Positions 4,392 through 34,132 of a stretch of DNA of 38,063 nucleotides are shown in pieces (the first letter of the stretch is position 1; every line of letters begins with the position of its first letter). The stretch is from Acidobacteriota bacterium. GTDB lineage: Bacteria > Acidobacteriota > Vicinamibacteria > Vicinamibacterales > UBA2999. The notes beneath the pieces were generated by a model. The model did no database searches. It saw nothing but the letters and a program-made list of their open reading frames with translations, and had not been told where the DNA came from. The stretch is taken from NCBI GenBank assembly GCA_016213695.1, contig JACQZV010000175.1, positions 1 through 38,063 on the forward strand, given 5' to 3'. The position numbers and the translations under genes are program-made.

Positions 4392-4398
4392 GCCGGAA

Positions 4399-4803: not shown

Positions 4804-4829
4804 CGTGCGCTCCTGGTGGTCCCGACTGG

Positions 4830-5801
4830 TCAGTATCTGATCCGGTGACAGAGCGCGTCGCCCGGCGACTCTGCGAGCGTCGCCATCACGTCGGGAAGCG
4901 CCTCGAACTCGCTCTCTCCGGTAATCAGCGCATCGAGCTCCGGCGCGTGCAACAGGTTGAGTGCGAGCGCCATGCGCCGGCGGCTGTCCCATCGCGGCCG
5001 CTGTGACGGGGCCACGTGCCCGACCTGCGAGGAGGCGATCGTCAGCCGGCGGGCGTGGAACGGACCGCCGAGCGGCAGCGGCACCTGCTGCGTGCCGAAC
5101 CAGCTCAATTCGACGATGCGCGCCTCCTCTCCGGCCAGGTCCAGCGCGGTGGCGAGACCTTCCGGGGCACCGCTCGCGTGAATGACGACGTCCGCGTCGC
5201 GGGTGGCGGCCGCCGGCTCCGCGAAGGGCACCTTCAGCGCCTTGGCCACCGACGCCCGGCGGGGATTGATGTCGAGCAATTCGACTTCGCATCCTGGAAT
5301 CCGCGAGGCGAGCCAGGCGGCCAGACACCCCACCGTGCCGGCGCCGACGACCGCGATACGATCGCCCACGTGCGGCCTGGCATCCCAGACGCCGTTGAGC
5401 GCCGTCTCGAGGTTGGCGGCCAGGACGGCCCGAGCGGCGGGAACGCCGCCGGCGAGCACGTGCGCGTCGGCCGCGGGTACGATGAAGCGGCTCTGATGTG
5501 GATGCAGCACGAACACGTTGCGGCCGGCGAGCTCGTCCGGGCCGCGCTCGACGAGGCCGACCATCGAATAGGCGTACTTGACCGGAAAGGAAAACTCACC
5601 CTGCTGAAACGGCGCGCGCATCCGCTGCCACTCGCCCGGCGGGACGCGCCCCGCGAACACGAGCGCCTCGGTGCCGCGGCTGATGCCGCTGTAGAGCGCG
5701 CGCACCACGACCTCGCCCGCGCGGGGCGCCGCCAGCGTTTCGCTGCGGATCTCCCCGCGGCCGGGCGCCGTCACCCAGAACGCTCTGGCCTCCTCGCGCA
5801 T
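4830..5801 (-). CDS. Zinc-binding/medium-chain dehydrogenase-like protein (BchC/ADH-like)
   Basis: ALYSGISRGTEALVFAGRVPPGEW; nucleotide-binding VVGAGTVGCLAAWLA; IHASGAPEGLATALDLAGEEARIVELSW. Confidence 0.8.
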   Translation of the reverse strand: MREEARAFWVTAPGRGEIRSETLAAPRAGEVVVRALYSGISRGTEALVFAGRVPPGEWQRMRAPFQQGEFSFPVKYAYSMVGLVERGPDELAGRNVFVLHPHQSRFIVPAADAHVLAGGVPAARAVLAANLETALNGVWDARPHVGDRIAVVGAGTVGCLAAWLASRIPGCEVELLDINPRRASVAKALKVPFAEPAAATRDADVVIHASGAPEGLATALDLAGEEARIVELSWFGTQQVPLPLGGPFHARRLTIASSQVGHVAPSQRPRWDSRRRMALALNLLHAPELDALITGESEFEALPDVMATLAESPGDALCHRIRY

Positions 5802-5815
5802 ACCTCGTCATTCTG

Positions 5816-6529
5816 ATGCGGTACCCACGCCGTTACAATGTCGTCCTCGCGATCGGGTTCGGGATGACGCTGGCCCTGGCGTCGATCGTCGGCTCGTGGG
5901 CCGGCGCGGGCGCGGCGTATGCGCTCGAGGCCGTGTTGTTTTTTGCCGCGCTGACCATCGGCGTGGTCGTGGTGGCCGGCGGACAGCATCCGTATCCACG
6001 TTTCGGGCCCGCCAACATTGTCACGACGATCCGGGCGATGCTGGCGGCGCTCGCGGCCGGGCTCGTCGGCCATCCCGCGTCTCCGGCGGTGCTCTGGTCG
6101 GTTGTCGGCCTGATCGCGCTTGTCGCCATCCTCGACGGCGTCGACGGCCACCTGGCGCGGGCCACACGCATGGCGAGCGCCTTCGGCGCGCGGTTTGACA
6201 TGGAGACCGACGCGGCGTTCATCTTCGTCCTGGCGATTCTCGTCTGGCAATACGGAAAAGCCGGGGCGTGGGTGTTGCTGTGCGGGCTGATGCGGTACGC
6301 CTTTGTCGCGGCCGGCCGGCTGCTGCCGTGGCTCGCCGCGCCGTTGCGGGCGACGCGGCGCGGTCGGATCGTGGCGGTGGGGCAGTCGATCGGGCTCGGG
6401 GTGGCGCTCGCGCCGATCGTGCCGCCGCCGGCGAGCGCGATGGTCGCCGTCGTGACGCTGGCCGCCCTGACGTGGTCGTTCGCGGTCGACGTGATGTGGC
6501 TGAAGGGGGTCAGACCCCCTGTGGAGTGA
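5816..6529 (+). CDS. CDP-alcohol phosphatidyltransferase family membrane protein
   Basis: Exact signature D-x2-D-G-x2-A-R-x8-G-x3-D-x3-D in DGVDGHLARATRMASAFGARFDMETD; several hydrophobic segments. Confidence 0.9.
   Translation: MRYPRRYNVVLAIGFGMTLALASIVGSWAGAGAAYALEAVLFFAALTIGVVVVAGGQHPYPRFGPANIVTTIRAMLAALAAGLVGHPASPAVLWSVVGLIALVAILDGVDGHLARATRMASAFGARFDMETDAAFIFVLAILVWQYGKAGAWVLLCGLMRYAFVAAGRLLPWLAAPLRATRRGRIVAVGQSIGLGVALAPIVPPPASAMVAVVTLAALTWSFAVDVMWLKGVRPPVE
6504..6520. repeat. 17-bp palindrome AGGGGGTC-A-GACCCCCT at the 3' end of the phosphatidyltransferase CDS
   Basis: Perfect 8-bp arms around one central base, directly readable at 6504-6520. Confidence 0.7.
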
Positions 6530-6533
6530 GACC

Positions 6534-6980
6534 ATGCCTGTTCTGGGACGACTCGGATCACCGGCCGGCGCGCTGCGGATTCTGTCGATGGCCATCGGAA
6601 CGTTTCTGATCTTCATGGCCCTCGACAAGGTCGGGTGGCTGACCGACAGCGGGTTCCTGCTGCGGCGGCTTCAGGAATGGCGCGGCACGGTGCGGCCGCT
6701 GGCGCGGTGGTATCTCGAGACGGTGGCCATTCCCGGCGTCCCGGTGCTCGCGCGCGTTATCCCGATCTCCGAACTGGCGGCGGGGGCGGCCCTGATCCTG
6801 GGCGTGAGGGTGCGGCTCGCGGCGGCCCTGACCTTCCTGATGGTGCTCAACTTCCACCTGGCCGCCGACCTGGTCTTCCGGTACAGCTACCTGATCAACG
6901 CCTACGGCTTGCCGATCCTCGGCGGTCTGCTGGCGCTTGCGGTCAACGGGACGCGGCTGCCGTTCAGCGCGTCCAGGTGA
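6534..6980 (+). CDS. DoxX-like small integral membrane protein
   Basis: Four hydrophobic segments; ...LARVIPISELAAGAALILGVRVRLAAALTFLMVLNFHLAADLVFRYSYLINAYGLPILGGLLAL resembles DoxX/MauE-type proteins. Confidence 0.65.
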   Translation: MPVLGRLGSPAGALRILSMAIGTFLIFMALDKVGWLTDSGFLLRRLQEWRGTVRPLARWYLETVAIPGVPVLARVIPISELAAGAALILGVRVRLAAALTFLMVLNFHLAADLVFRYSYLINAYGLPILGGLLALAVNGTRLPFSASR

Positions 6981-8551
6981 CGCCCCTCCGGCACGCGATC
7001 GAAGGCGTCGAGCAGCAGCGGCGTGAGCTGGTGCATCCGGCCAATCGCCGGCGACTGCGGCTCCAGGCCCTGACGGAACCCTGCCTCGCGCAGACGATCG
7101 AGCACGTGCCGCCTGCCGCCGATGACGTGTACGGGAACGTCCCATGGCGCGCCTTTGCCGCTCACCGCCGCAGGCGGCTGATGGTCGCCGATCACGACGA
7201 GTACCGGGTCGTCCGCCTGCTCGCGCAGGTAGCCGGCGAGCGCGGTGTACTCGTACGCCATGGCCCGAACATAACTCGGCCGCAGATTCGTGAGATCCGG
7301 GCTGACGGCCATCGCGCGCGCGACCTCCGCGTCATCGAAGGCGTGCTCCGTCAGGACGCGCGCCCAGGACGGCTGATACGGCGGCACCGGGCCGAACGGG
7401 GCATGCGTCGTGCTGGTTGGAAAGACGACGAAGAGCGGCGCGCGCGAGCGAGGGCGGCGCTCGACGGCATCGAGCCTGGCGAACGCGTACTGGTCCGGGA
7501 CGGCCCACCAGCCGAATTCCGGCCCGCGGTACGCAAGGTGCTCGCGGTCGGCGATCGCATCGAAGCCATAAAACGCGCCTTCGGGCCACGCCTGCCGCAT
7601 GCCGGGCATGAGCGCCACGGTGCGATAGCCGCGCCTGGCGAAGTTGGTGACGAGCGTCTCCCGCGAGGAGGCCATCAGCGACGAATAGGCATACTGGTCG
7701 CGCACCTCCACGCCCGAGAGCAGGCTGAGGTGCGCCAGCCACGAGGAACCGCCGAACGTCGGTGATTCCACGTAGGCGGACACGACGTCGCGGCCAGTCT
7801 GGTGGACGGCCGCTTCGAGTTCGGCGCGGCTGGCGGCAAGGCCCGCGGAGATCGCCGGCGTCTGGTACGTCACGGCGCCGTACGACTCGACGAAGATGAC
7901 CAGGACGTCGGCGCCGCTGATGCCGCGCAGCCCGGTGTCGAACGCCGGGCTCGGACCGAGCGCGGGGGCTGCCGGTGCCGGGCCCATCATGGCCAGTGCG
8001 AAGCGCACCTGCCGCGCGTAGGCCGGCACCACCGGACTCGCAAACGCGACCCCGGGCACGAGTCCGGCCAGCCGCTGGCCGGCGAAGAGCAGCACGACGG
8101 AGGCGGCGAGGGAGGCAAGCGCAAGCCGGCCGCGGCGATGCTCCACCGAGGTCGCCACCTGGTGGAACGCAAACCGGGCGAGGCCGTACACGACGGCGAC
8201 CATCACGGCGGCGCCGGCCGCGGCGGCGGCCACGAGCCACCATGGCGCCGCGCGCGCCAGCATCGCGGCCCCGTTGCCCAGGTGCCGGGAGTCCCAGTAC
8301 AGATTGAACTCCCGCCCGTAGAGGCCGGGAGCCGTGACGTCGAGATAGTGGCCGGCCACCAGCACGACCCAGAGCGGCGCGAGGACGCGGCGGGCGAGTG
8401 CTCGCGCCCGCCGGTGCGCGACCGAGAGCAGCAGGACGCCGGCGGCGAGCTCAATAGACAGCGCGGACGTCCAGCGGATGGCCGGCGTGGGCCATATGTT
8501 TTCGAACGTCAGCAGGGCGTTGAGGAGGATGAGGGCGGCCGTCGTGGCCAC
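6902..8551 (-). CDS. Membrane-anchored sulfatase-like / alkaline-phosphatase-superfamily hydrolase (LTA-synthase-like)
   Basis: N-terminal transmembrane helices; VLVIFVESYGAVTY, ESPTFGGSSWLAHLSLLSGV, FVVFPTSTTHAPFGP and VLVVIGDHQPPA motifs. Confidence 0.8.
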   Translation of the reverse strand: MATTAALILLNALLTFENIWPTPAIRWTSALSIELAAGVLLLSVAHRRARALARRVLAPLWVVLVAGHYLDVTAPGLYGREFNLYWDSRHLGNGAAMLARAAPWWLVAAAAAGAAVMVAVVYGLARFAFHQVATSVEHRRGRLALASLAASVVLLFAGQRLAGLVPGVAFASPVVPAYARQVRFALAMMGPAPAAPALGPSPAFDTGLRGISGADVLVIFVESYGAVTYQTPAISAGLAASRAELEAAVHQTGRDVVSAYVESPTFGGSSWLAHLSLLSGVEVRDQYAYSSLMASSRETLVTNFARRGYRTVALMPGMRQAWPEGAFYGFDAIADREHLAYRGPEFGWWAVPDQYAFARLDAVERRPRSRAPLFVVFPTSTTHAPFGPVPPYQPSWARVLTEHAFDDAEVARAMAVSPDLTNLRPSYVRAMAYEYTALAGYLREQADDPVLVVIGDHQPPAAVSGKGAPWDVPVHVIGGRRHVLDRLREAGFRQGLEPQSPAIGRMHQLTPLLLDAFDRVPEGRHLDALNGSRVPLTASASRPPRIGKP

Positions 8552-8555
8552 GGAT

Positions 8556-9203
8556 TTACACCGACGAGAGCAGGTGGCCGAGCTTGTCTTTCTTCGTCTT
8601 CAAGTAGCGCGCCGTCGAGGGGGTCGGCTCAATTTCGATGGGCAGCCGCTCGCTCACCGACAGCCCCTCGCCGGTGAGGCCCGCCAGCTTCCTGGGGTTG
8701 TTGCTCAGCAGGCGCGTCGAGTTCACGCCGAGAGACCGCAGCATCTCGAAGGCCACGCGGTAGTCGCGGCCGTCGGCAGGGAAACCGAGCCGCTCGTTGG
8801 CCTCGACCGTGTCGTCGCCATGATCCTGGAGCGCGTAGGCCCGAATCTTGTTGGCCAGCCCGATGCCCCGCCCCTCCTGATCGAGGTAGACCACGATCCC
8901 GCGGCCCTCCTCGACGATGCGCTCGAAGGCGGCCTGCAGCTGCTGGCCGCAGTCGCAGCGCGCCGAATGAAAGAGGTCGCCCGTCAGGCACGCCGAATGA
9001 ACCCGCGTGAGCACGTTGTCCCCGTTGCCGATCTCACCGAAGACCAGTGCGACGTGCGCCTTGGTCGAAAAGAGGCCCTTGAAGACGTGGATGTCGCACT
9101 CCCCGTAGTGGGTCGGCAGCTTCGACGACGCCACGCAGCGCACGGCCGGCCGGCGAAAGGGTAGGTGAAGGGAGGCGAGAATGCCGCGAAGCCGTGGATT
9201 CAC
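8556..9203 (-). CDS. ribA: GTP cyclohydrolase II
   Basis: ARVHSACLTGDLFHSARCDCGQQL-type Zn site (RVHSACLTGDLFHSARCDC), YLDQEGRGIGLANKIRAYALQDHGDDTVEANERLGF, STRLLSNNPRKL, YLKTKKDKLGHLL; collinear with E. coli RibA as recalled. Confidence 0.95.
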   Translation of the reverse strand: MNPRLRGILASLHLPFRRPAVRCVASSKLPTHYGECDIHVFKGLFSTKAHVALVFGEIGNGDNVLTRVHSACLTGDLFHSARCDCGQQLQAAFERIVEEGRGIVVYLDQEGRGIGLANKIRAYALQDHGDDTVEANERLGFPADGRDYRVAFEMLRSLGVNSTRLLSNNPRKLAGLTGEGLSVSERLPIEIEPTPSTARYLKTKKDKLGHLLSSV

Positions 9204-9263
9204 AACCAGATGCCTGAATCTGTCAAAGGGGAACTCTAATCGTAGGTGTGGACGCGAGGCCTG

Positions 9264-10298
9264 TCAATGCGCCGGCATCGTCCGCTTTCCGTCCACGACC
9301 GGCGGAAAGTCCCTCACCTCGTCGTACACCTCCGTGATGAAGCGGTCCTTGCTCTGCCGCGAGTCGCCGGCGGTCGTCTCGTCATAGGGCGCGGTCAGAT
9401 CCGCGGCCAGGACGTCCTTCAGCGATGCGCCCTGATTGCGCAGCGCGGCCACCCTGGCCAGCACGTCCACCAGCATGGCCCGATAGGGCAGGAGGTCTTT
9501 CTTCCTGATGAGCGTGCCATGGCCTGGAACCAGCGTCGTATCGGGGCCGGCCACCTTGTCGAAGAGGTCGATCGCGTCGAGCATGCCCCTGATCGACCCG
9601 CCATTGGCCTGATCGGCGAAGGGATAGCCGAAGTTGCGGTAGAAGTCCTCGATGTAGATCACGTTGGCGTTGCGGAAGCGGACGATGGTGTCGCCGGCGG
9701 TGTGGGAGGGCATCATCGGAATGAAGTCCACGGTTTCGCCGTTCATGGTGAGCGTAACGGCGGGCCGGCCCGGCGCGGCCGGGTCGTAGTCATAGGTCAC
9801 CACCGGAACGCCCGGCAGATCGGCCGCCGCGATCGGCTGGCCGTTGGCGCGACGCACCATCTCACGGCGCAGATTCTCCTGGGCGAAGATCAACGCTCCC
9901 TGCGTGCCGAAAAAGGCGTTGGCGCCGGTGTGGTCGCCATGAATGTGTGTGTTGACCACGACTTTGACGGGCGCGTCGGTGAACGACCGGATCGTCGTCA
10001 ACGTCTTGTCGGCCACCTGCCGGTTCTCGGTGTCGACCATGAGGACGCCGTCCGGTCCGAAGAGCACCATGACCCTGCCGCCGGACGCGTCGGGATGTGC
10101 CGGATCGAGGCCTTCCGACCCATGCAGCACGAAGAGATTCGGCGCCAGCCTGGCCGTCACCATGATCTGAATCCTGTCCCAGGGCGTCTGGTAGCCGACA
10201 GGAAACGCGTACGGACCTGCTCCCTGCGCCCGTCCCATCGCGGGGATCGCGGCCATCGCGGCGAGACTCAACAACACTGCGGCGCGCTGCTTCATCAT
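9264..10298 (-). CDS. Secreted MBL-fold metallo-hydrolase
   Basis: Signal peptide; VVNTHIHGDHTGANAFF (intact HxHxDH), PSHTAGDTIVRF, LVPGHG. Confidence 0.9.
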   Translation of the reverse strand: MMKQRAAVLLSLAAMAAIPAMGRAQGAGPYAFPVGYQTPWDRIQIMVTARLAPNLFVLHGSEGLDPAHPDASGGRVMVLFGPDGVLMVDTENRQVADKTLTTIRSFTDAPVKVVVNTHIHGDHTGANAFFGTQGALIFAQENLRREMVRRANGQPIAAADLPGVPVVTYDYDPAAPGRPAVTLTMNGETVDFIPMMPSHTAGDTIVRFRNANVIYIEDFYRNFGYPFADQANGGSIRGMLDAIDLFDKVAGPDTTLVPGHGTLIRKKDLLPYRAMLVDVLARVAALRNQGASLKDVLAADLTAPYDETTAGDSRQSKDRFITEVYDEVRDFPPVVDGKRTMPAH

Positions 10299-10363
10299 CC
10301 CGCTGTCGTATCACATCCCGTCCTGTTTCCCCAACCTGAAGACCCGCGGCCTCCGATCGATCA

Positions 10364-10392
10364 TTGAACCGCCGTCCCGCCTGGTGTAGGCT
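10364..10392 (+). promoter_or_regulatory. Weak candidate sigma70-type promoter TTGAAC-N17-TAGGCT upstream of the PAL-like gene
   Basis: TTGAAC at 10364-10369 and TAGGCT at 10387-10392, 17-bp spacer; poor -10 match. Confidence 0.25.
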
Positions 10393-10410
10393 CCCCCCGT
10401 GAGGAGCTCC

Positions 10411-11457
10411 ATGACACGATTGCCCGCGTTCCTGTGTGCCGCCGCGCTGCTCGTCGCCGGGTCCGCCTTCGCGCAGCAGAAGGCGACGATTACCGGTGTT
10501 CCCGACATTCCGTTCACGTCCGTTCCGAACTTCCTGAAGCTGCCCGCCGGGGAGTATCTGGGCGAATCGGTGGCCGTGGCCACCGACTCGAAGGGCAACA
10601 CGTACGTGTTTCACCGGCGCGACACGACGCGGCTGTTCCAGTTCGACCGGAACGGCACCTTCGTCAGGGAAATCGGCAAGGGCTATTACGGCTTCGAATT
10701 CGCCCACTCGGTCCGCGTGGACAAGGACGACAACATCTGGACGGTGGACGAGGGAACCAATATGGTCACCAAGTTCAGCTCCGAGGGCCGGGTGCTGATG
10801 GTGCTGGGGCGCCGGCCGGCGGCCGTTGACGGCCCGGTTCTGTTCCCGGTCGGCCCGAACCCGCCGGCACAGAAGTACATCTTCTGCCGCCCGACCGACG
10901 TGGGGTGGGACCCGCAGGGCAACATCTTCGTCTCCGACGGCTACTGCAACAATCGCATCGTCAAGTACGACAAGAACGGCCGCTTCCTCGCGCAGGCCGG
11001 CAGCGAAACGGCGGGCAAGGGGCTGGGCGAATCCAACCTGCCGCACGGCATGCAGGTGGACGAGCGCGGCAATGTGTGGGTGGCCGATCGGACCAACTTC
11101 CGGTATCAGGTCCTCGACAACAATCTCAAGCCGATCAGGGAGATCACCAACCTCGGCGTCGGCTGGACGATCTGCATCTCGCCGGGACCGCACCAGTACG
11201 TCTTCCACTCCAACTCGAACCCGAACGGCAATCCGCCCGGGTCGTGGGACATCACCGGCGAGATCTACAAGACGGAGCTGGACGGCACCGTCATCGGCAA
11301 GTTCGGCAAGCCCGGCAAGGTCGCGCCCGGATTCCAGGTGGTCCACATGATGGACTGCCGCAATCCGAATGAGATCGTGCTCGGCGAAATCGAATCGTGG
11401 CGCGTGCAGAAATTCATCCTGCAGTCGGCGCCGGCATCACGTACCGCGGCGCGTTGA
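10411..11457 (+). CDS. Secreted NHL-repeat / peptidyl-alpha-hydroxyglycine alpha-amidating lyase (PAL)-like protein
   Basis: Signal peptide MTRLPAFLCAAALLVAGSAFAQ; FHRRD, FAHSVRVDKDDNIWTVD, FCRPTDVGWDPQGNIFVSDGYCNNRIVKY, NLPHGMQVDERGNVWVADR, VVHMMD. ATG at 10411 follows gaggag. Confidence 0.88.
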   Translation: MTRLPAFLCAAALLVAGSAFAQQKATITGVPDIPFTSVPNFLKLPAGEYLGESVAVATDSKGNTYVFHRRDTTRLFQFDRNGTFVREIGKGYYGFEFAHSVRVDKDDNIWTVDEGTNMVTKFSSEGRVLMVLGRRPAAVDGPVLFPVGPNPPAQKYIFCRPTDVGWDPQGNIFVSDGYCNNRIVKYDKNGRFLAQAGSETAGKGLGESNLPHGMQVDERGNVWVADRTNFRYQVLDNNLKPIREITNLGVGWTICISPGPHQYVFHSNSNPNGNPPGSWDITGEIYKTELDGTVIGKFGKPGKVAPGFQVVHMMDCRNPNEIVLGEIESWRVQKFILQSAPASRTAAR

Positions 11458-11470
11458 CGTGGAGCGAACC

Positions 11471-12550
11471 ATGAGGAGCCTGTCCATGAAACCGTTCGCA
11501 CACGCACTCGCGGCCGCCATCGTCGTGGCGGCGATTCCCGCCTCGGCCCAGAACACCGCGCCGACGATGAACTTCGATTCCTCGCCCAATGTGCTGACGC
11601 TGCCCGCCGATGTGTATCTCGGCGAAGTCGGCGGCGTGGCGACGAACTCGCGCGGCGATATCTTCGTCTACACGCGCACCGGCCATCCGACGATGTCGAT
11701 GGCGACACCGCGTCCGTTCGCACATGGCGGATCGCGGCTCTTCCAGTTCGATCGCAACGGGCGCTTTACCCGCGAGATCGGTCAGGGGCTGTACGGCTTC
11801 CTCTTCGCGGCCCAGGTGCGCGTCGACTCCGAGGACAACATCTGGGTCGTCGATGAGATGTCCGGCATGGTCATCAAGTTCGATTCGCAGGGCCGTGTCG
11901 CGTTCCTTCTGGGACGAAAGCCGGAAGCCCTGCAGAACCCGCCGCGCCCGGCGGCCGGCGGCGGTGAGGGCGGTGGCGGCGGCAGAGGAGGCCCGCCCGG
12001 TGCCGGTGCGAATCAGGATGTCTTCAACCGTCCGACCGACGTGGCGTGGGACGCCCAGGGCAACGTGTTTGTCGCCGACGGCCGCGGCAACGCGCGCGTC
12101 GCCAAGTTCAGCAAGGACGGCGTGTTCGTCAAGTCGTGGGGCCAGAAAGGCGCCACGCCGGGACAGTTCGGCAGCGTCGACAGCATTGCCGTCGATGCGC
12201 AGGGCAATGTCTACGCGGCCGACGGCGGGAACGGGCGCATCCAGGTGTTCGACAACAACGGCGCCTTCAAGACCGAGATCCGGAATGTCGGCAACGCGCA
12301 GGCGATCTGCATCACGCCGGGTCCGAACCAGGTCATGTATGTGTCGAATTCCAACCCCCCGAACGATCTCGATACGGCCGGGGAGATCTACAAGATGCGC
12401 CTCGACGGGACGATGATGGGAAAGTTCGGCCGGGCCGGGAAGCTCCTCAAGGAGTTCGGCAGCGTCAGCGCCATCGATTGCCGGAGCGAGAACACGCTCT
12501 ACGTGGGCGAGGTCGGCAATCTCAGGGTCCAGAAACTCGCGATCCGCTAG
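11471..12550 (+). CDS. NHL/PAL-like beta-propeller paralog with substituted active-site positions
   Basis: Tandem paralog of the preceding gene (YGFLFAAQVRVDSEDNIWVVDE; FNRPTDVAWDAQGNVFVADGRGNARVAKF; RVQKLAIR). ATG at 11471 after ggagcg. Confidence 0.85.
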   Translation: MRSLSMKPFAHALAAAIVVAAIPASAQNTAPTMNFDSSPNVLTLPADVYLGEVGGVATNSRGDIFVYTRTGHPTMSMATPRPFAHGGSRLFQFDRNGRFTREIGQGLYGFLFAAQVRVDSEDNIWVVDEMSGMVIKFDSQGRVAFLLGRKPEALQNPPRPAAGGGEGGGGGRGGPPGAGANQDVFNRPTDVAWDAQGNVFVADGRGNARVAKFSKDGVFVKSWGQKGATPGQFGSVDSIAVDAQGNVYAADGGNGRIQVFDNNGAFKTEIRNVGNAQAICITPGPNQVMYVSNSNPPNDLDTAGEIYKMRLDGTMMGKFGRAGKLLKEFGSVSAIDCRSENTLYVGEVGNLRVQKLAIR

Positions 12551-12562
12551 GAGGATGAGCAC

Positions 12563-13051
12563 ATGGAGCACATCATCGGCAAGATGCTTGGCGAATACGA
12601 ACGCGGCAAGGTGACGCGTCGCGAACTCATTCAGACTCTCGCGCTCGCGGCGACGGCGGCGGGCGCGGCGGGGACCGCGGAGGGCGCCGTGCCGGCCAAC
12701 GCCACCTACATCAACCACGTGTCGATGCAGGTGGCCGATTACAAGAAGTCGCGCGATTTCTATACGGGCCTCTTCGGCATGAAGGTCACGAGCGACGACG
12801 GCAAGCAGTGCCGTCTGGTATTCGGCGACAACATCCTCATCGTCCGCAACGCCTCCGAGCGGCCGGGCGGCAAACCCGGCGTCGATCACGTCGCGTACTC
12901 GCTGGCCAACTGGGACACCGACAAGTCCGTCAGGCCGGCGGTCGAAGCGGAGCTCAAGCGCCGCGGGTTGAAGATTCGAACGACCGAAGGCAGCTTCCAC
13001 GTGATGGATCCGGACGGCTTCGAAGTGCAGATGGGCGGCAAGAACCAGTAG
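12563..13051 (+). CDS. VOC (glyoxalase/bleomycin resistance fold) protein with Tat-like leader
   Basis: TRRELIQTLALAATAAGAAG leader; INHVSMQVADYKKSRDFYTGLFGMKV...VDHVAYSLANWD...HVMDPDGFEVQM. Confidence 0.88.
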   Translation: MEHIIGKMLGEYERGKVTRRELIQTLALAATAAGAAGTAEGAVPANATYINHVSMQVADYKKSRDFYTGLFGMKVTSDDGKQCRLVFGDNILIVRNASERPGGKPGVDHVAYSLANWDTDKSVRPAVEAELKRRGLKIRTTEGSFHVMDPDGFEVQMGGKNQ

Positions 13052-22425: not shown

Positions 22426-24111
22426 TCAGGGCGCCAGCGGCTCGATATGGATCAGCGTGTTGCCGTGTTGATTGCCCAGCCAGAAGCTCGAGAGCGCGCC
22501 GGATTTCTGCACCTCGACGTGGCGGACGTTCGTTTCGTGCGGGAGCAGGTACTCGGTGAACTCGCCGGTCTGGACGTTCAGCCGCAGGGCCAGGTCGTTG
22601 TCCATCCCCGCCGTCCATGCATACGTCCGGTCGTCAAATTGCGCGTCGTACGGCCGCGTCCACGGCGTGGGGGCGGTCCATTCGGTAATCTTCTCCGTCT
22701 TCGGGTCGAACATCGCCAGACGGTTGCCATGGAAGACGCCGCACCAGAGGCGGTCCTGCGCGTCGATGTGACCGCGGCGGCAGCCCGCGCCCTTGGTGGG
22801 GAAGTCGTACCAGACGGTCTGGAGCGTCTTGCCGTCGGTCTTCCAGAGCTTGTCGTTGGTCATCTGCATCCCGTAGGAGTTGTTCTTCGAGTCGGCCACG
22901 ACGTCGTAGGCGCGCGCCGAGGGACTGCCAGCCGGATAGGTGACGCGCGTCCACGTATTGGTGGCGAGGTCGATGTGCCACGTCCCGCCCGCCTCGCCGG
23001 TATCGAAGGCCACGTTGGCCCAGAGTTTCCCGTCCAGATGCTGGAACGCGGGGTCCACCATCGTCAGGTGGGCGTCGCCGAAGCTCGATTCCTCGAGCGG
23101 CGACCTGAACGTCTCGAGCTTCCCGGTCTTCGGGTCGAGCCTGGCGATCTGCATCTGCGACATGTTGCCGTAGTAGATCCGGCCCTGGCGGTCGATGTCG
23201 ATCTGCAGGCCGCCCTGCGCAATCTGGCCGAGGCGATTCTGCGGAACGGTGTACTCGGTCACCTTGCCGGTCTTCGGATCGAGCTTCCCGAAGAACTGCG
23301 AATTGAAGTCCGAATACCAGACGTTGCCCTGCGCGTCGAAGACCGTGTCGTGCGGCGAGGCATCCGGGCGCGGGAGCTCGTACACGGTGTAGATGACCTG
23401 CGTCGCCTTCCCGTGCGGCCGCGGCAACGTCGTGAGCGGGAAGTCGAACGAGTCCCTCGCGCTCAGGTTGACCGAGGCGAGATACGTGGCGAACGCGCTC
23501 GGCGCGGACGGCGGCGCGGCGCGTATCGGCCCTTCGATCGGCCGCACCCAGGGATGGAGCGGCGACGAGTTGTTGGTGTGCCTCGCCATCCGCTGAATCA
23601 CCGGCATCCACTCCTCGGCGGTAAAGCGGGAGAACAGGACGCGCTGCAGCGTGTGGCAGTTGACGCAGCCGCCGAGCCCCGTTTTCTGCACCGGCGTGCC
23701 GGGGGCGCTCAGGATCAGCTCGGCGTTCGACATCTGCATGGCGAGCGCCGAGGCGCGCGTCACCTTGTCGAGCGGCAGGTCGAGCCGGGCCGGCTGCGCG
23801 GTCACCTCGACCGACGTGCCCCGCAGCTCGTAGCCGACCGCCCGGACGGTCACCGCGTAGCGGCCCGGCTCCATGCGGTCGCGCGGGAAGCGGTACTCGC
23901 CGCGGGCATCGCTGACCACCCAGGTTGCCACCGTCGAGCCGGCTTTCTTCGCGCCCACGAGCACGCCTTCCATGGCGCCTTCGACCGGCGAGGTGACCGT
24001 GCCCGACAGCGCCGCGTCGGACGGGGTGTCGGGTGGTACGCGCCCGATGACCGTCGTGTCTGCCACGGCCAGTCCCACCACGATGGCCGCGAGAAGTGTC
24101 GCCTTACGCAT
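22426..24111 (-). CDS. Carboxypeptidase-regulatory-like domain + c-type heme motif + streptogramin-lyase-like beta-propeller
   Basis: LSGTVTSPVEGAMEGVLVGAKKAGSTVATWVVSDARGEYRFPRDRMEPGRYAVTVRAVGY; CVNCH (23653-23667); repeated DPKTGKVTEYTVPQ / DPKTEKITEWTAP blades. Confidence 0.85.
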   Translation of the reverse strand: MRKATLLAAIVVGLAVADTTVIGRVPPDTPSDAALSGTVTSPVEGAMEGVLVGAKKAGSTVATWVVSDARGEYRFPRDRMEPGRYAVTVRAVGYELRGTSVEVTAQPARLDLPLDKVTRASALAMQMSNAELILSAPGTPVQKTGLGGCVNCHTLQRVLFSRFTAEEWMPVIQRMARHTNNSSPLHPWVRPIEGPIRAAPPSAPSAFATYLASVNLSARDSFDFPLTTLPRPHGKATQVIYTVYELPRPDASPHDTVFDAQGNVWYSDFNSQFFGKLDPKTGKVTEYTVPQNRLGQIAQGGLQIDIDRQGRIYYGNMSQMQIARLDPKTGKLETFRSPLEESSFGDAHLTMVDPAFQHLDGKLWANVAFDTGEAGGTWHIDLATNTWTRVTYPAGSPSARAYDVVADSKNNSYGMQMTNDKLWKTDGKTLQTVWYDFPTKGAGCRRGHIDAQDRLWCGVFHGNRLAMFDPKTEKITEWTAPTPWTRPYDAQFDDRTYAWTAGMDNDLALRLNVQTGEFTEYLLPHETNVRHVEVQKSGALSSFWLGNQHGNTLIHIEPLAP

Positions 24112-24257: not shown

Positions 24258-26150
24258 ATGAATCGACTGAAGGTCGCGGGTCTCCTGATAGCACTGGCGT
24301 CAGCGGCGTCGCTGCCGACGCGCGCGCAGGAGAACTCGCCGCCCGACCTGACCGGGACGTGGCGGTGGCTCCCGTACGAAGACGAGCGCGACCGCACGCC
24401 GGGCGCCTATCCGGGCGACTACCGCGGCCTGCCCCTGAACGACGCGGCGCGGATGCGCGCCGACACCTACGACGAAGAGGTCAACGCCACCTCGCAGCTC
24501 CTGCAGTGCCGCCCGCGCAGCCCGGCGTACCAGGCGAAGGGACTCGATCCGGCGCGGATCGACCAGGTGGTCGATCCGATCAGCCGTCAGATCGTCGCGC
24601 TGCGCATCGGCTACGAGAAGACACCGGGCGATCGGATGGTCTGGCTCGACGGCCGTCCGCACCCGTCGCCGTACGCGCTGCACTCGTGGGACGGCTTCTC
24701 GACCGGCCGCTTCGTCGGGGACACGCTGGAGATCACGACGACGCACATGAAGGAGAGCTACGCGCGCCGCAACGGCGTGCCCGCCAGCTTTCGCGCGACG
24801 GTCGTGGAGCACGTCTCGCTCGAGGAGCCGTTTCTCGAGTGGACGTTCACGGTCATCGATCCCGACTATCTGACCGAGCCGCTCGTCCGCAGCGCCACGT
24901 ACGTGCGCGCGCCGACGCTGCAGCTGCCGCCGTACCCGTGTCAGCCCGAGGCGTACCAGCCCGGCGAGAAGTATCGGGTGCCGCACTACCTCGTCGGCGA
25001 CAATCCGTACCTCACCGAATCGGCCGTCAAGTACCGGATGCCGCAGGAGGGGACGCGCGGCGGCGCCGAGACGCTCTATCCCGAGTGGCGGGCGAAGGGC
25101 GCGGCGCTGGCTCCGCCCAAAGAACAGTACGCGTACACGCCGGTGTACGCCGACGCCTCGACGCACGTCGCCGAGCGCGCCGATGCCGAACCGGCGCGCC
25201 CGCCCGCCTACGACAGGGTCGAGACGCTGCACGTGGCCGGCAACGTCTACCTCGTCGCCGGCGCGGGCGGGAACATCACGATTTCCGCAGGGGGCGACGG
25301 CGTGGTGATGGTTGATTCGGGTGCCGCCGCGGCCAGCGACCGCGTGCTCGCGGCGATTCGCCGGATCGCCGACATCCCGCGGCCGCCGGAGCCGCCCGAC
25401 GCCGCGTCGTTGACGGCGAGTCCGTGGCTGGCCTCGCACGCGCCGGCGGAGCCGGCCATCCGCTTTATCATCAACACCAGCGGCAACGCGGATCACGTGG
25501 GCGGCAACCCGGCGATTCGGAAGTCGCCGCTCTTCCGCGTCCTCGGATACCGCGATCCGTCGCTGAGCCTGCAGGTGCTGGCGCACGAGGCGGTGCAGGG
25601 CCGGCTCGCCGAGTCGAGCGCCACCGAGGCGCTCGCGCCGACCGACACGTACTCGTCCGACACGTACACCCTGTACCGCTTCTTCAACAATCAGGCGGTG
25701 CAGCTCTTCCACGCGCCGAACGCGGTCACCGACGGCGACACGATGGTCTGGTTCCGCCGGGCGGATGTGATCGCGGCGGGCGACATCTACAACAGCGACA
25801 TCTATCCGCCGATCGACGTCGGGCGCGGCGGCGGCATCGACGGCACGATCGAGGCGCTCAACCGGCTGATCGAGATGTCGGCGACCGAATTCATGTCCCA
25901 GGGAGGCACGCTCGTCGTGCCGGGCCACGGCTGGATCGGCGACGCCGCCGACGTCGGCACCTACCGCGACATGCTGATCGTCGTCCGCGATCGCGTCCAG
26001 AACCTCGTCGGCCGCGGCATGACGCTGGCCCAGGTCAGAGCCGCCAGGCCGACGCTCGATTTCGACCCGTTGTACGGGCGGCAGCGGGGCGCCGCCGCGC
26101 GCTTCGTCGAGGCGGTGTACCGGAGTCTTGCGGAGAAGAAGAAGTCATGA
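24258..26150 (+). CDS. Fusion: N-terminal 'PDLTGTW'-family domain + C-terminal MBL-fold-like domain
   Basis: PPDLTGTWRWLPYEDERDRTPGAYP...GRFVGDTLEITTTHMKESYARRNGVPASFRATVVEHVSLEEPFLEWTFTVIDPDYLTEP; then VYLVAGAGGNITISAGGDGVVMVDSG...FIINTSGNADHVGGN...LVVPGHGWIGD. Confidence 0.85.
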   Translation: MNRLKVAGLLIALASAASLPTRAQENSPPDLTGTWRWLPYEDERDRTPGAYPGDYRGLPLNDAARMRADTYDEEVNATSQLLQCRPRSPAYQAKGLDPARIDQVVDPISRQIVALRIGYEKTPGDRMVWLDGRPHPSPYALHSWDGFSTGRFVGDTLEITTTHMKESYARRNGVPASFRATVVEHVSLEEPFLEWTFTVIDPDYLTEPLVRSATYVRAPTLQLPPYPCQPEAYQPGEKYRVPHYLVGDNPYLTESAVKYRMPQEGTRGGAETLYPEWRAKGAALAPPKEQYAYTPVYADASTHVAERADAEPARPPAYDRVETLHVAGNVYLVAGAGGNITISAGGDGVVMVDSGAAAASDRVLAAIRRIADIPRPPEPPDAASLTASPWLASHAPAEPAIRFIINTSGNADHVGGNPAIRKSPLFRVLGYRDPSLSLQVLAHEAVQGRLAESSATEALAPTDTYSSDTYTLYRFFNNQAVQLFHAPNAVTDGDTMVWFRRADVIAAGDIYNSDIYPPIDVGRGGGIDGTIEALNRLIEMSATEFMSQGGTLVVPGHGWIGDAADVGTYRDMLIVVRDRVQNLVGRGMTLAQVRAARPTLDFDPLYGRQRGAAARFVEAVYRSLAEKKKS

Positions 26151-27491: not shown

Positions 27492-28826
27492 ATGCGGTTC
27501 ATCGTTCCCGCGTCACTGGCGCTCGTCGTCGTCGCCGCCACGGTGCCCCTTCAGGCCGGCCAGTCGGCTGCCGCACAGGCGCCCGTCACGTTCGCGAAAG
27601 ACGTCGCGCCGATTCTCCAGAAGAACTGCCAGACGTGCCACCGGCCGGGCAGCATCGCGCCGATGCCGCTGCTGACCTACGACCAGGCGCGCCCCTGGGC
27701 GCGGTCGATCAAGGAGCAGGTCCTGCTGCGGCAGATGCCGCCGTGGTTCATCGACAAGAACGTCGGCGTCCAGCACTTCAGCAACGACCGGTCGCTGACC
27801 GACCGGGAGATCGACACGATCGCGCGGTGGGTCGACGCCGGCGCGCCGCAGGGCAACCCCGCCGACATGCCGCCGCCCCGCCAGTTCGCCGCCAACGAGA
27901 CCTGGCAGATCGGTGAGCCGGACGTCGTCGTGAGCCTTCCGAAAGACCTCATCGTGAAGGCCAAGCAGCCGGATCAGTGGCCCGATATTCTGGTCGATCC
28001 CCAGCTCACCCAGGATCGCTACATCCAGGGCGTGCAGATTATTCCGATCAAAGGCTACCCGGTCATTCACCACATCCGCACCTCCATCGTCGAGCCGACC
28101 GACGCCAGCCGCGGCAGCGGGCAGACCGATGATGTCGACGATCTCGAGCTGGGCGAGCAGGGCGTATTCCTCAACGAGTACGCGCTCGGCAAGGGGGGCG
28201 ACGTCTTCACGGATGGATCGGGCCGGTTGATCAAGGCGGGAACAAAGATCAACTTCCAGCTCCACCTCCACGCCAACGGCAAGGAGGACATGCCGGCCAA
28301 CGTCAAGCTCGGCCTGAAGTTCTATCCGGCCGGCTACGTGCCGAAGCATGTCATTGCGTCCATGACCGTGAGCTCGCCCCAGGTCGACCTCCGGCCGCAC
28401 GCCGACAACGTCCGGTCCGACGGCTACAAGGTGCTCGTGCGCCCGGCCCGGATCCTGTCGTTCCAGCCGCACATGCACAACCGCGGCAAGGCGGAGTGCC
28501 TTGAAGCCATCCTGCCCACGGGCCGCGTCGAGGTGCTCTCGTGCGCGAAGTTCCGGTTCAACTGGCATCTCAACTACGTGTACGACGATGACGCGGCGCC
28601 GCTGCTGCCGGCCGGCACCGTGCTCCACGCGATCATGTGGCACGACAACTCGGCGAAGAATCCGTTCAACAACGATCCCGACGCCCAGATTACCTACGGT
28701 CAGCGGACCGTTGACGAGATGTCGTCGGCGTGGCTGAGCTGGTACTACATGTCGGACGAGGAGTACAAGCAGGAACTGGCGGAGCGTCGGGCGCGTCGCA
28801 GCGCCGTGACGACCTCGTCAAACTGA
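27492..28826 (+). CDS. Secreted c-type heme domain fused to a copper type II ascorbate-dependent monooxygenase (PHM/DBH)-like domain
   Basis: CQTCH heme motif (27627-27641); IHHIRTS, FQLHLHANG, FQPHMHNRGK and TVDEMSSAWLSWYYM match the expected copper-ligand segments of PHM-family enzymes. Confidence 0.85.
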   Translation: MRFIVPASLALVVVAATVPLQAGQSAAAQAPVTFAKDVAPILQKNCQTCHRPGSIAPMPLLTYDQARPWARSIKEQVLLRQMPPWFIDKNVGVQHFSNDRSLTDREIDTIARWVDAGAPQGNPADMPPPRQFAANETWQIGEPDVVVSLPKDLIVKAKQPDQWPDILVDPQLTQDRYIQGVQIIPIKGYPVIHHIRTSIVEPTDASRGSGQTDDVDDLELGEQGVFLNEYALGKGGDVFTDGSGRLIKAGTKINFQLHLHANGKEDMPANVKLGLKFYPAGYVPKHVIASMTVSSPQVDLRPHADNVRSDGYKVLVRPARILSFQPHMHNRGKAECLEAILPTGRVEVLSCAKFRFNWHLNYVYDDDAAPLLPAGTVLHAIMWHDNSAKNPFNNDPDAQITYGQRTVDEMSSAWLSWYYMSDEEYKQELAERRARRSAVTTSSN

Positions 28827-28840
28827 GTGGGAGGCCGGCG

Positions 28841-29656
28841 GTGAAGCGGTTCGTGGTCCTGGCGCTGGCGTGCTGCGCGCTCCTGGCGCCGGCCCTTCGT
28901 GCGCAGGTCGGCCCGCAGTCGTTCGCTCGCGGCCAGGACATCAGTCCGACCTTCGACGGCTGGGAGCGGAACGCGGACGGCACCTTCACGCTCTGGTTCG
29001 GCTACTACAACCGGAACACCGAGGAAGAGATCGACGTCCCGCTCGGTCCGGACAACACGTTCGATCCGGGCGGCGATCGCGGCCAGCCGACACACTTCTA
29101 CCCGTCGCGGAAGTGGTGGGTCTTCAAGACGATCGTGCCCGCCGACTGGCCCGCCGACCGCAGGGCCGTCTGGACGCTGACGACACACGGCAAGACGAAC
29201 CAGGCCAAGGGCTGGCTCCAGCCGGAATGGGAGGTCGACACCGATCTGATCTCCAAGAACGGCGCGCGTGACCCGTCGCTGATGACCAACGGCACCAACG
29301 CGCTCGACCAGGATCACGAGAACCGCCCGCCGGTGATGGCCGGCAGCGCCGCGCAGACGATCGGGGTCTCGGACACGCTGGCCCTCACGGTGACTGCCAC
29401 CGACGATGGACGACCGAAGCCGGTGCCCGATCCGGAGGGCCGCCTGCAGCAGGGCGTGCGCGTGCGCTGGATCGTGTACCGGGGGGCCGGCGCGGTCCGG
29501 TTCGACCCGGACATCATGAGCGGCCGTATCTACGGCAAGCCGGCGACGCTGGCGACCAGGGTGCGCTTTGCGGCCGCCGGCGCCTACCGGCTGCGCGCGA
29601 TTGCGAGCGACGGCCAGGCCTTCTCCACCTACGACGTGGATGTGACGGTCAAATGA
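28841..29656 (+). CDS. Secreted hypothetical protein (GTG start)
   Basis: MKRFVVLALACCALLAPALRAQ signal peptide; FDGWERNADGTFTLWFGYYNRNTEEEIDVPLGPDNTFDPGGDRGQPTHFYPSRKWWVF; GGAGG SD upstream. Confidence 0.75.
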   Translation: MKRFVVLALACCALLAPALRAQVGPQSFARGQDISPTFDGWERNADGTFTLWFGYYNRNTEEEIDVPLGPDNTFDPGGDRGQPTHFYPSRKWWVFKTIVPADWPADRRAVWTLTTHGKTNQAKGWLQPEWEVDTDLISKNGARDPSLMTNGTNALDQDHENRPPVMAGSAAQTIGVSDTLALTVTATDDGRPKPVPDPEGRLQQGVRVRWIVYRGAGAVRFDPDIMSGRIYGKPATLATRVRFAAAGAYRLRAIASDGQAFSTYDVDVTVK

Positions 29657-31284
29657 ACAGACGCAGGTTTCTGAAGGACGGCGTGCTCGGCGTCGGCGCC
29701 AGCGCGCTGGCGGGCGCCGCGGCGCAGGAGGCGGAGCTCTCGGCTCAGCGCGTCACGAAGTGGGACCGCGTCGCCGACGTGGTCATTGCCGGCGCGGGCG
29801 CCTCGGGGCTGTGCGCCGCGATCATGGCCCGGGACGAGGGTGCGTCGGTGCTCGTGATCGATCAGAACCACGACATCGGCGGGCACGCCATGGTGAGCGG
29901 CGGGCGGATCCCGCTCGGCGGCGGCACGCGCCTGCAGAAGAAGTTCGGCGTCGAGGATTCGGCCGACAAGGTCTATCTGGATCACACGAACGCTCGCAAT
30001 CAGGAGCTCCGGTTCAGCGATCGCGATCTCGTGCGTGTGTGGGCCGACGAGAACGCGCCGACGTTCGATTTCCTGCTGGACAACGGCGTGAAGTTCGACG
30101 AGGTCATGCCGACCCTCGTCAACGAAGGCACGGTACCGCGCCTGTTCCGCACGGTGCCGTACTCCGACGATCTCAACGTCACGATCAACGGCAGTCCGGG
30201 ATCGGGTCTGGTGCGGGCGCTCGAGAAGAGCGCGCGCGCCAAGGGCGTCGAGATTCTCCTCAGCCACCGCCTGACGCGCATCGTCCGCGAGAGCGCGGCG
30301 TCTGGGCGCGTGCAGGGCATCACCGCGGAATTCCAGGGCAAGCCGGTCGCCATCCAGGCGCGCAAGGGCTTCATCATCGCCACCGGCGGCTTCACGAGCA
30401 ACGTGGCGTTCCGGCGGATGTTCGACCCGCGGCTCACCGAGGAGTACCAGGTGGCGGGGGAGCCGTGGAGCAGGCAGCCGGCCGAAGGGGAGATGCTCGC
30501 GATGGCGCTCGGCGCCGCGCTCTGGGGCACGTCGAACGTGGCAAGCGAGCACGGGCGCACGATCACCAAGACGCGCCACATCGGCGCCCGCTACGGATAC
30601 GAGAATCTGAGATGGAACCCCGGCAGCCCGATGTTCAAGCAGGCGGGCGGCTCCGGCCTGACCGTGCGCACCTATCAGGATGTCGTCTGCGTGAACCAGT
30701 TCGGGCGGCGCTTCTGGAACGAGCTGGACGACACCTACGGGTACCTCAACGCGTGCGTCGGTCGCCAGGACGACAGCGAGACGCGCGGCAAGCTGAACGG
30801 CGGCGGTCCGATCTGGGCCGTCTTCGACGCCGACGGGGTCGCGCGCGAGAAGTGGGACCCGAAGCCTCCCAACGTCGATCCGAACGGCTGGTTCTTCACG
30901 GCGGGCACGGTGGCGGAGCTGGCGCGAAAGATTGCCAACCCGTATCAGTCCAAGCCGATGCCGCCGCGCGCCCTCGAAGAGACGGTCGCGAAGTACAACT
31001 CGTATGTCGATGCGGGGAAGGACCCGGAGTTCGGCAGGCCCGGCCTGATGTTCAAGATCCAGAAGCCGCCGTTCTATGCCGCGTGGGCCACGCCCATCCT
31101 CCACGATGCGCTGGCGGGCCTCCGGACCAGCGCGCGCAGCGAGGTGCTCGACATTCGCGGCCAGGTCATTCCCGGCCTGTACGCCTGCGGCGAGTCGGCG
31201 GGCGGTTTTGCGCTGCACGGTCTCCCTCGGGTCACCGTCTTCGGCCGCATTGCCGGGCGCGAGGCGGCCCGTGTCAGGACCTGA
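29653..31284 (+). CDS. Tat-exported FAD-dependent oxidoreductase (fumarate-reductase/3-ketosteroid-dehydrogenase-like flavoprotein)
   Basis: NRRRFLKDGVLGVGASALAG Tat leader; DVVIAGAGASGLCAAIMARDEGASVLVIDQ; GFIIATGGFTSN; GLYACGESAGGFALHGLPRVTVFGRIAGREAA. Confidence 0.88.
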   Translation: MNRRRFLKDGVLGVGASALAGAAAQEAELSAQRVTKWDRVADVVIAGAGASGLCAAIMARDEGASVLVIDQNHDIGGHAMVSGGRIPLGGGTRLQKKFGVEDSADKVYLDHTNARNQELRFSDRDLVRVWADENAPTFDFLLDNGVKFDEVMPTLVNEGTVPRLFRTVPYSDDLNVTINGSPGSGLVRALEKSARAKGVEILLSHRLTRIVRESAASGRVQGITAEFQGKPVAIQARKGFIIATGGFTSNVAFRRMFDPRLTEEYQVAGEPWSRQPAEGEMLAMALGAALWGTSNVASEHGRTITKTRHIGARYGYENLRWNPGSPMFKQAGGSGLTVRTYQDVVCVNQFGRRFWNELDDTYGYLNACVGRQDDSETRGKLNGGGPIWAVFDADGVAREKWDPKPPNVDPNGWFFTAGTVAELARKIANPYQSKPMPPRALEETVAKYNSYVDAGKDPEFGRPGLMFKIQKPPFYAAWATPILHDALAGLRTSARSEVLDIRGQVIPGLYACGESAGGFALHGLPRVTVFGRIAGREAARVRT

Positions 31285-31899: not shown

Positions 31900-34071
31900 C
31901 TACTTGGCGAGCGGGTCGGGACGAAGCTGGAACCTGACCACCTTGCTCGTCGTGCCCGGGCCGGTCTCCATGTGGAACGGCGTTCGAGTGCTGACGGTCG
32001 TCCAGAGCCCCTTGCCCTTCCATCCCGCGTTCGGATCGTCGATCCGGCCGTCCATCCACTTGGTGTAGTACCCGGTGGGATACGGGACGCGCAGCACGAC
32101 CCATTTCCCGTCCTTGAGCACGAGCAGCCCCTCGGAGGCGTTGCCCGTGTCGATCGGCACGTTCCTGCCCAGGCCCAGGGTGTCGAACTGGTCGACCCAG
32201 GTGAAATAGCTGGCCTCGACGCTACCCGAATCGGTCACACCCTTGAACTGGGGCAGCGGTTCCGGATAGAGCGTCCAGCCCTCGGGACAATGCTGTCCGG
32301 TTGCGGTGGGTCCGTTCAGCGGGCCCTGGCACTTGCGACGATCGAAGCTGGCCAGGTGTCCGCTGGCGAGTGCCAGCCACGCGACGCCGTTGCGGTCGAT
32401 GTCGAACCCACGCGGCGAGAACCCCTGCACTGGTGCTTTCGCGTTGTTGAACGGCGGTTCGTACACTTCCGCCAGTGCGGTCGCCGGCGGATTTGCGCCG
32501 GGATTCAGCCGGACAACGGCGCCCGGCAGACCGAGGAGCGATCCCCACACCGTCCCGTCCGGCGCCGGAGACACGCCGTAGAAGGCGCCGCCGAGCCGCT
32601 TGTCCTTCCCGGGGTCGAGCGGCTGATCGGGCTCGACATAGGCGTCGCGCTTTCCGTTGCCGTTGGTATCCAGAATCAGCGCCGTCCAGCCCTGGGACTT
32701 CGCTTCGTCCCCCGTCTCCTCGAACATCTTCCGGTTCAGCCACCCGACGACCTGGCCGCCGCCGCTCGTCCAGAGCGTCTGGTTGGCATCCTCGGCGAAC
32801 ATCAGGTGGTGCGTGCTGAAGCAGGTGCCGATGTGGGTGAGTTTCTGCGTCTTCGGGTCGTACATGGCGAGGTGCCGCTCCGCGTTGGCAATCGGAAACA
32901 GCTTCGCTGACGGATGGCTCGATCCCTCCTTGCAGTAGTCCGGGTTGGCGGCAGGGCGGATCGCCGACGTGATCCAGACGCGGCCCTTCTCGTCCATCAT
33001 CGGATTGTGCACGTTGTTCCTGCTGCTCCAGATCACTTCTTCGCCCCAGTACGGCGACGGTTGTGGCATGGCCGGCGTCGAGGCGGGCGGCGTCTTCGGA
33101 TCGCGGACCGTCAGCTTCACCTGGCTGGTCGTATGGCGCGTCGGATCCAGCACGGGGAGATAGTCCGCGCTGAGCTCGAGCGAACCGTACATCAGTCCGT
33201 TGGCATTGACCCGCGGATTGCGCCTGTCGGTCGAGACGACGTCGTGGAGGTACGCCTTCGGATCCGCCCAGTCCCACTGGGTGATGACGACATTCCGCTC
33301 GACGCCCTGCGGCCGCTGGGGCGCCGGCGGCACTTCGCCTGCGGCAATTCGATCGGTCCAGTCGGCGAACATCGCCAGCGCACGAGGGCGGCCCATCTGG
33401 TTGAGACCGGTGCTCATCTGACCGCCCGCCTGTCCGGATTGCACGCGGCGGTCCCACGCCGCCACCGAGGAGGCGAACGCACCAAGCGCCTTGGGGATCT
33501 CGCGCGTCCCTTTCGTGCCGATCTGGTGGCAGGTCGTGCAGTTGCCCGACTTCATCCTTCTGATCCAGTCGGCCTGGCTCGTCACGACCGGCGAGATGCC
33601 GTTGCCCCCAGGCCCGGTGCCGGGAAACTCCTTCTTGTCCGGCACGCGGACGAGCGAATACCAGTAGCCGGCCGGATAGTACTGCGCGGCGGCGCGCGGA
33701 TTGGGCGCCGCCACGGCGGTGAGGTTCAGTACTCTGCCCGGCGCCGCCTGCACCTTGGGCGAATCCACGAGCCCGTAGCCGCGGACCCAGACGCTGTAGT
33801 TCGCTTTCGGCAGGTCGGGCATCACGTACCGTCCCTGGTCGTCGGTCACCACCGTTCGGCTGAATTTCGTGGGAAGGTCACTCGTTTCCGCGATGACCCA
33901 GACCCCGGCCTCCGGTCCGCGCGGGCCCCTGACCACTCCGCCGATGTCATCGTTATCGATGCGCACGGCGTCGCCGGCGACCTGGAGGGCGCTCGTGTTC
34001 ATTGGCGCCGCCGCCCACAGCACAGCGAGGCCGACGGCCACGATGCCCACAGTCAGCGTTCTGCTTGTCAT
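31900..34071 (-). CDS. Carboxypeptidase-regulatory-like domain + c-type heme motif + beta-propeller (second copy of the architecture)
   Basis: IGGVVRGPRGPEAGVWVIAETSDLPTKFSRTVVTDDQGRYVMPDLPKANYSVWVRGYGL; CTTCH (33526-33540); propeller-like LAMYDPKTQKLTHIGTCFSTHHLMFAEDANQTLWTSGGGQVVGWLN. ATG at 34071 after gaggag. Confidence 0.83.
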   Translation of the reverse strand: MTSRTLTVGIVAVGLAVLWAAAPMNTSALQVAGDAVRIDNDDIGGVVRGPRGPEAGVWVIAETSDLPTKFSRTVVTDDQGRYVMPDLPKANYSVWVRGYGLVDSPKVQAAPGRVLNLTAVAAPNPRAAAQYYPAGYWYSLVRVPDKKEFPGTGPGGNGISPVVTSQADWIRRMKSGNCTTCHQIGTKGTREIPKALGAFASSVAAWDRRVQSGQAGGQMSTGLNQMGRPRALAMFADWTDRIAAGEVPPAPQRPQGVERNVVITQWDWADPKAYLHDVVSTDRRNPRVNANGLMYGSLELSADYLPVLDPTRHTTSQVKLTVRDPKTPPASTPAMPQPSPYWGEEVIWSSRNNVHNPMMDEKGRVWITSAIRPAANPDYCKEGSSHPSAKLFPIANAERHLAMYDPKTQKLTHIGTCFSTHHLMFAEDANQTLWTSGGGQVVGWLNRKMFEETGDEAKSQGWTALILDTNGNGKRDAYVEPDQPLDPGKDKRLGGAFYGVSPAPDGTVWGSLLGLPGAVVRLNPGANPPATALAEVYEPPFNNAKAPVQGFSPRGFDIDRNGVAWLALASGHLASFDRRKCQGPLNGPTATGQHCPEGWTLYPEPLPQFKGVTDSGSVEASYFTWVDQFDTLGLGRNVPIDTGNASEGLLVLKDGKWVVLRVPYPTGYYTKWMDGRIDDPNAGWKGKGLWTTVSTRTPFHMETGPGTTSKVVRFQLRPDPLAK

Positions 34072-34103
34072 AGTCTCTGCCTCCTCGCGGAATGATGGGT
34101 GGA

Positions 34104-34132
34104 CGATACGTCCGCAAGGGGAATTGGTCAAT
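34104..34132 (-). promoter_or_regulatory. Candidate promoter TTGACC-N17-TATCGT
   Basis: Minus strand: TTGACC (34132-34127), TATCGT (34109-34104), 17-bp spacer, upstream of the 34071 start. Confidence 0.5.

Follow-up and report, generated by a model that had tools for sequence, protein, structure and literature searches.

A c-type cytochrome fused to a PHM/DBH-like copper core in Acidobacteriota: a candidate heme-fed monooxygenase

Introduction

Can the two-copper chemistry of PHM and DBH draw its electrons from a heme built into the same polypeptide, instead of from ascorbate? Both are textbook two-copper enzymes of animals and some protists, and animals use this core for making peptide hormones and noradrenaline. 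In the animal proteins, electron transfer is ascribed to CuH, and O2 binding and hydroxylation to CuM, with two electrons supplied by ascorbate (PMC4846438); how electrons enter, and how they cross the distance of about 11 Å between the coppers, is still debated (PMC4846438, PMC6123673). The question is raised by a gene from a soil acidobacterium, located in a window of 38,063 nucleotides (the whole stretch of DNA that was analysed), in which a c-type heme motif and a full set of PHM-type copper ligands had been predicted within a single open reading frame.

Results

The N-terminal cytochrome

The fusion gene (27492-28826, +) comprises 444 codons uninterrupted by a stop, and translation of this frame (protein P0001) places the heme attachment motif CQTCH, residues 46-50, at 27627-27641 (+), both exactly where the original prediction had put them. 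Residues 1-29 (27492-27578, +), which end in AAAQA, read as a probable Sec signal peptide, and residues 1-20 are of low confidence in the AlphaFold (AF2) model. The heme motif thus follows a signal-like N-terminus, as in mono-heme c-type cytochromes. Among 94 aligned relatives, gathered from GTDB genomes and from the same phylum, C49 and H50 are present in every row and C46 in 93; M82 (27735-27737, +), the first residue of an invariant MPPW (residues 82-85), is likewise conserved in 94/94 and is likely the distal axial ligand of the heme. The Pfam model Cytochrome_CBB3 (PF13442) scores the fusion protein below its cut-off (20.6 bits vs 27; E = 5.6e-4) and matches 88 of the 94 relatives at E ≤0.1.

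The copper core

Downstream of the heme lies a PHM/DBH-like two-domain core (residues 138-422; 27903-28757, +), in which the profile alignment assigns each predicted copper ligand a counterpart in PHM: H193 and H194 (28068-28073, +) correspond to the CuH ligands H107 and H108, and H258 (28263-28265, +), the first His of LHLH, to the CuH ligand H172, while H327 and H329 of HMH (28470-28478, +) correspond to the CuM ligands H242 and H244, and M410 (28719-28721, +), the last residue of DEM (28713-28721), to the CuM ligand M314. In the printed alignments with PHM, its HH, QVH, HTH and DEM each fall on a predicted ligand. The HH, H, HxH and M positions named beforehand agree, apart from the label IHH, as 28068-28073 covers HH only, and the proposed order of PHM/DBH ligands is borne out, with six columns that are conserved in 94/94 and align one-to-one with those of PHM.

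This conservation holds down to about 26% identity. The alignment has 16 invariant columns, including C49, H50, M82 and the six ligand positions (H193, H194, H258, H327, H329 and M410), and the only Cys, His or Met columns above 80% are those of CxxCH, M82, the six predicted copper ligands and M328 within HMH. When the protein was shuffled 20,000 times, HH/H/HxH/M with native spacings arose 40 times, and the same pattern preceded by CxxCH once. A chance motif match was rejected on the strength of ligand conservation and of profile homology to PHM/DBH: searched against the PDB, the family profile found PHM at E = 1.2e-8 and DBH at E = 2.8e-8, and a profile of the core only improved on the full-length profile, reaching 4.4e-11 for PHM.

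Two further features mark the core. C336 (28497-28499, +) is the probable disulfide partner of C351 (28542-28544), and Cys occurs in each of these columns in 31/94 rows. Just ahead of the Met ligand, residues 385-396 (28644-28679, +) form the family motif DNSAxNxxNPDP, in which N386, N390 and N393 are kept in 93, 92 and 90 of the 94 rows; it falls opposite a gap in PHM in the profile alignment and is perhaps a loop that binds substrate or metal.

Searches with the single sequence were far less telling. A PDB search with the fusion protein returned nothing convincing, a Pfam scan of it matched neither of the copper-monooxygenase models PF01082 and PF03712, and an NCBIfam scan had no match. PF03712 also found nothing in the source genome; because it misses even the fusion protein, absence by this model is uninformative. 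The missing matches reflect the limited reach of the models, not absent homology: PF03712 matches 50/94 relatives and PF01082 14/94 at E ≤0.1, and two relatives from Poribacteria (L104 and L107) are among those above the PF03712 cut-off. In these two and in L021, L025 and L028, the same fusion is extended either by an N-terminal AhpC/TSA thioredoxin-like (redoxin) domain, the form found in Poribacteria, or by C-terminal TPR repeats.

The AF2 model of the fusion protein has a pLDDT of 89, and its 31 best Foldseek matches in the PDB are all DBH or PHM chains (lowest E 3.7e-12; highest TM by target 0.66). The superposition on PHM is not tight, with an rmsd of 5-6 Å across some 300 columns and a TM by target near 0.6, perhaps because the two domains are opened to a different degree; both open and closed forms are described for DBH (PMC4846438). 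On its modelled fold and aligned ligands, the fusion protein is a member of the PHM/DBH superfamily, with both sites predicted to be loaded with copper. The conserved CxxCH, the profile matches and the Foldseek ranking thus uphold the prediction of a c-type heme fused to a PHM-like domain.

Generality of the fusion and a ligand-less clade

A census of PHM-like domains combined a core-only query, the 40 regions around its matches and the loci collected earlier into 178 distinct domains, a set that leans to fused members in the part gathered with a full-length query, the core-only search being the fairer. CxxCH lies in the same open reading frame in 171 of the 178, and the other seven are accounted for by cut ends (L165, L186, L053 and L054), a run of Ns (L057), an in-frame stop (L017) and a frameshift (L198); QTCH is still visible in L057, and CxxCH is readable upstream in L017 and L198. 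In all 12 printed examples, 89 residues separate CxxCH from the domain. No demonstrably heme-free PHM-like domain was found among the 178, and fusion of the heme to the copper domain looks obligate. We rejected a rare fusion or an assembly oddity, given the number of distinct domains and the explanation of every exception.

In a phylum sample searched with the core only, 29/149 genomes contain the fusion family, several of them with 13-18 matches. The collection is mostly from Acidobacteriota, with members in Poribacteria and Hydrogenedentes and a few loci labelled Acidimicrobiia, Gemmatimonadaceae and Dehalococcoidia. Our literature searches found no functional or experimental study of a bacterial cytochrome c–PHM-like fusion; the domain pair is likely already in public domain-architecture listings. 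Bacteria thus appear to possess a large family of copper enzymes wired to heme that has gone unstudied.

In four of the 178 domains none of the six copper ligands is present, yet CxxCH and MP(P/V)W are retained (L127:2697-4739, from the source genome at G000:C19; L092:11523-12752; L125:3219-4586; L043:2579-3868). The four group together in the tree as a single sister clade (98% SH-aLRT). Because all six ligands were lost together, they presumably make up one functional unit or site. The copy in the source genome adjoins an intact copy and a partner gene, and bears a heavy-metal binding domain (PF19335). Given this clade, heme and fold may be useful without copper, which counts against the reading that we prefer below.

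Partner gene and neighborhood

Fourteen bases past the stop of the fusion gene begins a gene (28841-29656, +) for a secreted protein of 271 residues from no known family, modelled by AF2 as two Ig-like beta domains (pLDDT 87.6). Almost all members of the fusion protein's subfamily have a homologue of it as immediate neighbor: in a tree of 161 members, a single 46-row branch (support 100) contains all 42 partner-bearing members, and the partner label changes 5 times on this tree vs 37.3 times for shuffled labels. The partner gene marks the subfamily. A family search of the partner protein and a search of the PDB with its profile had no match, and a fold search gave generic Ig-like matches only; its homologues share no conserved Cys, His or Met, the invariant residues being G/N/R/Q/T/W. 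We take the protein to be a dedicated companion of the subfamily, perhaps for substrate presentation or docking. Elsewhere, a 4580-aa open frame (G009:C7, ~3200-12600) contains many repeats that resemble Ig-like domain 2 of the partner protein.

The next gene (29653-31284, +), which shares 4 bases with the partner gene, encodes an FAD-binding flavoprotein with a Tat-like start, resembling flavocytochrome c and 3-ketosteroid dehydrogenase (PF00890, FAD_binding_2, 8.9e-41; TIGR01813, 4.5e-57, below cut-off). Since only three relatives (L036, L041 and L043) have a homologue close to the fusion gene, this optional neighbor is a candidate donor at most. Exported c-type heme proteins abound in the cluster around the fusion gene: flanking genes at 22426-24111 (-) and 31900-34131 (-) encode secreted proteins with a carboxypeptidase-regulatory domain and a CxxCH motif, the former also with a Vgb-lyase/SMP-30-like propeller. 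The gene at 24258-26150 (+), which keeps its synteny with the fusion gene in L036, encodes a protein with a C-terminal metallo-beta-lactamase fold domain. Genes for cytochrome c assembly and for two heme-copper oxidases occur in the source genome, which therefore has the means both to attach heme and to respire aerobically. No denitrification gene was found among the scanned genes of the window.

Discussion

The reading that we favor, with a probability of about 0.6, is that the fusion protein is an exported (periplasmic) copper monooxygenase of the PHM/DBH fold, reduced via its own N-terminal c-type cytochrome instead of by ascorbate. An outside periplasmic donor, such as a respiratory cytochrome or a flavoprotein, would reduce the heme, one electron per step, and the heme would pass electrons to CuH (H193, H194 and H258). 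CuM (H327, H329 and M410) would bind O2 and hydroxylate a C-H bond of a substrate other than a peptidylglycine, taking the second electron from CuH, as in PHM. What the computation shows is the fusion, the fold, the complete ligand set, how nearly universal the fusion is and the linkage to the partner gene; for the fusion protein, we infer copper loading, activity, the direction of electrons, their flow from heme to CuH and the O2 chemistry. Because the heme is fixed N-terminal to the CuH domain in every member, a built-in electron supply is the simplest reading of it, and the near-universal fusion makes it plausible that the heme supplies the electrons that ascorbate supplies in animals, as had been proposed. 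The same proposal went too far in calling the enzyme self-contained: one heme holds one electron and each turnover needs two, so that an outside donor must refill it.

Electrons could also run the other way, with copper sites that oxidise the substrate in the style of an oxidase or dehydrogenase and a heme that passes electrons to the respiratory chain. Direction is not readable from sequence, a Tat-type FAD-binding flavoprotein is encoded next door, and where a c-type cytochrome is fused to a periplasmic dehydrogenase it usually accepts the electrons. We nevertheless consider this unlikely, as the characterised proteins with His3 and His2Met sites, PHM and DBH, are monooxygenases that use O2 and accept two electrons (PMC4846438). 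It is more doubtful that a small reductant (ascorbate-like or a quinol) feeds the coppers directly and leaves the heme a structural, sensory or regulatory role. Such a role has a parallel in animal DBH, whose N-terminal DOMON, a heme-domain fold without heme, may be regulatory (PMC4846438), but an invariant CxxCH, an invariant candidate axial Met and a near-universal fusion are unlike a dispensable regulator.

To both of the remaining explanations we assign a very low probability. A non-catalytic protein that binds or delivers copper, with an electron-transfer heme, would suit the ligand-less paralogue with PF19335 in the same genome; it sits poorly with 94/94 rows that retain both catalytic-type sites and with them the CuM Met, and with paralogue counts above 12 in several genomes, which suit enzymes with diverse substrates better. 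Lower again we place a heme-fed copper enzyme that reduces nitrite, NO or peroxide. Heme-fused copper nitrite reductases do occur in bacteria, and nitrite or azide is present in solved PHM structures (entries among the Foldseek matches), yet the ligands make up PHM-type sites, not the type 1 plus type 2 pair of a nitrite reductase, and the scanned window genes include none for denitrification.

Should heme-fed monooxygenation prove correct, ascorbate would not be essential to PHM/DBH-type chemistry, and the covalent heme donor of the bacterial form would allow electron delivery to be followed optically in single turnovers. Abundant soil bacteria would then hold an unrecognised set of enzymes for C-H oxidation that for the most part escape present family models. 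Tentatively, and at somewhat less than even odds, we extend this to a large ascorbate-independent family of cytochrome c-wired dicopper monooxygenases, with an obligate heme, at least a dozen paralogues per genome, diverse extracellular substrates and a derived copper-less clade that uses heme and fold alone.

With PHM, the first half of PAM, the fusion protein shares the two-domain beta fold, the His3 (CuH) and His2Met (CuM) sites in the same order, and the QxH, HxH..GK and DEM contexts. It differs in its N-terminal cytochrome c, in the extra DNSAxNxxNPDP loop of its family, in having no conserved disulfides (C336/C351 occur in a third only) and in having no PAL lyase domain within its open reading frame, and identity over the structural alignment is about 14%. 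R240, N316 and Y318 of PHM, which we take to bind the peptide carboxylate, are replaced by Q325, S412 and W414, positions that vary across the family, so a peptide with a C-terminal glycine is an unlikely substrate. We rejected a peptide amidase (PHM proper) on the same grounds, and the description PHM-like accordingly applies to fold and copper sites but not to substrate. Q170 of PHM, part of a substrate/water network with H108 (PMC6123673), has its counterpart in Q256, which is Gln in about half of the 94 rows.

DBH, like tyramine beta-hydroxylase and MOXD1, resembles the fusion protein in joining the catalytic core to an N-terminal accessory module, and it is the best Foldseek match by E-value. 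The modules themselves are unrelated: DOMON is folded like the cytochrome domain of cellobiose dehydrogenase and in DBH is without heme ligands (PMC4846438), whereas that of the fusion protein is a helical c-type cytochrome; a DBH-type dimerisation domain was not seen in the fusion protein. Compared with bacterial proteins recognised by PF03712 and PF01082, some relatives match these models but the fusion protein itself matches neither. What is known here is the fold and ligand set of the PHM/DBH superfamily; what is new is its heme-fused, PHM-like form.
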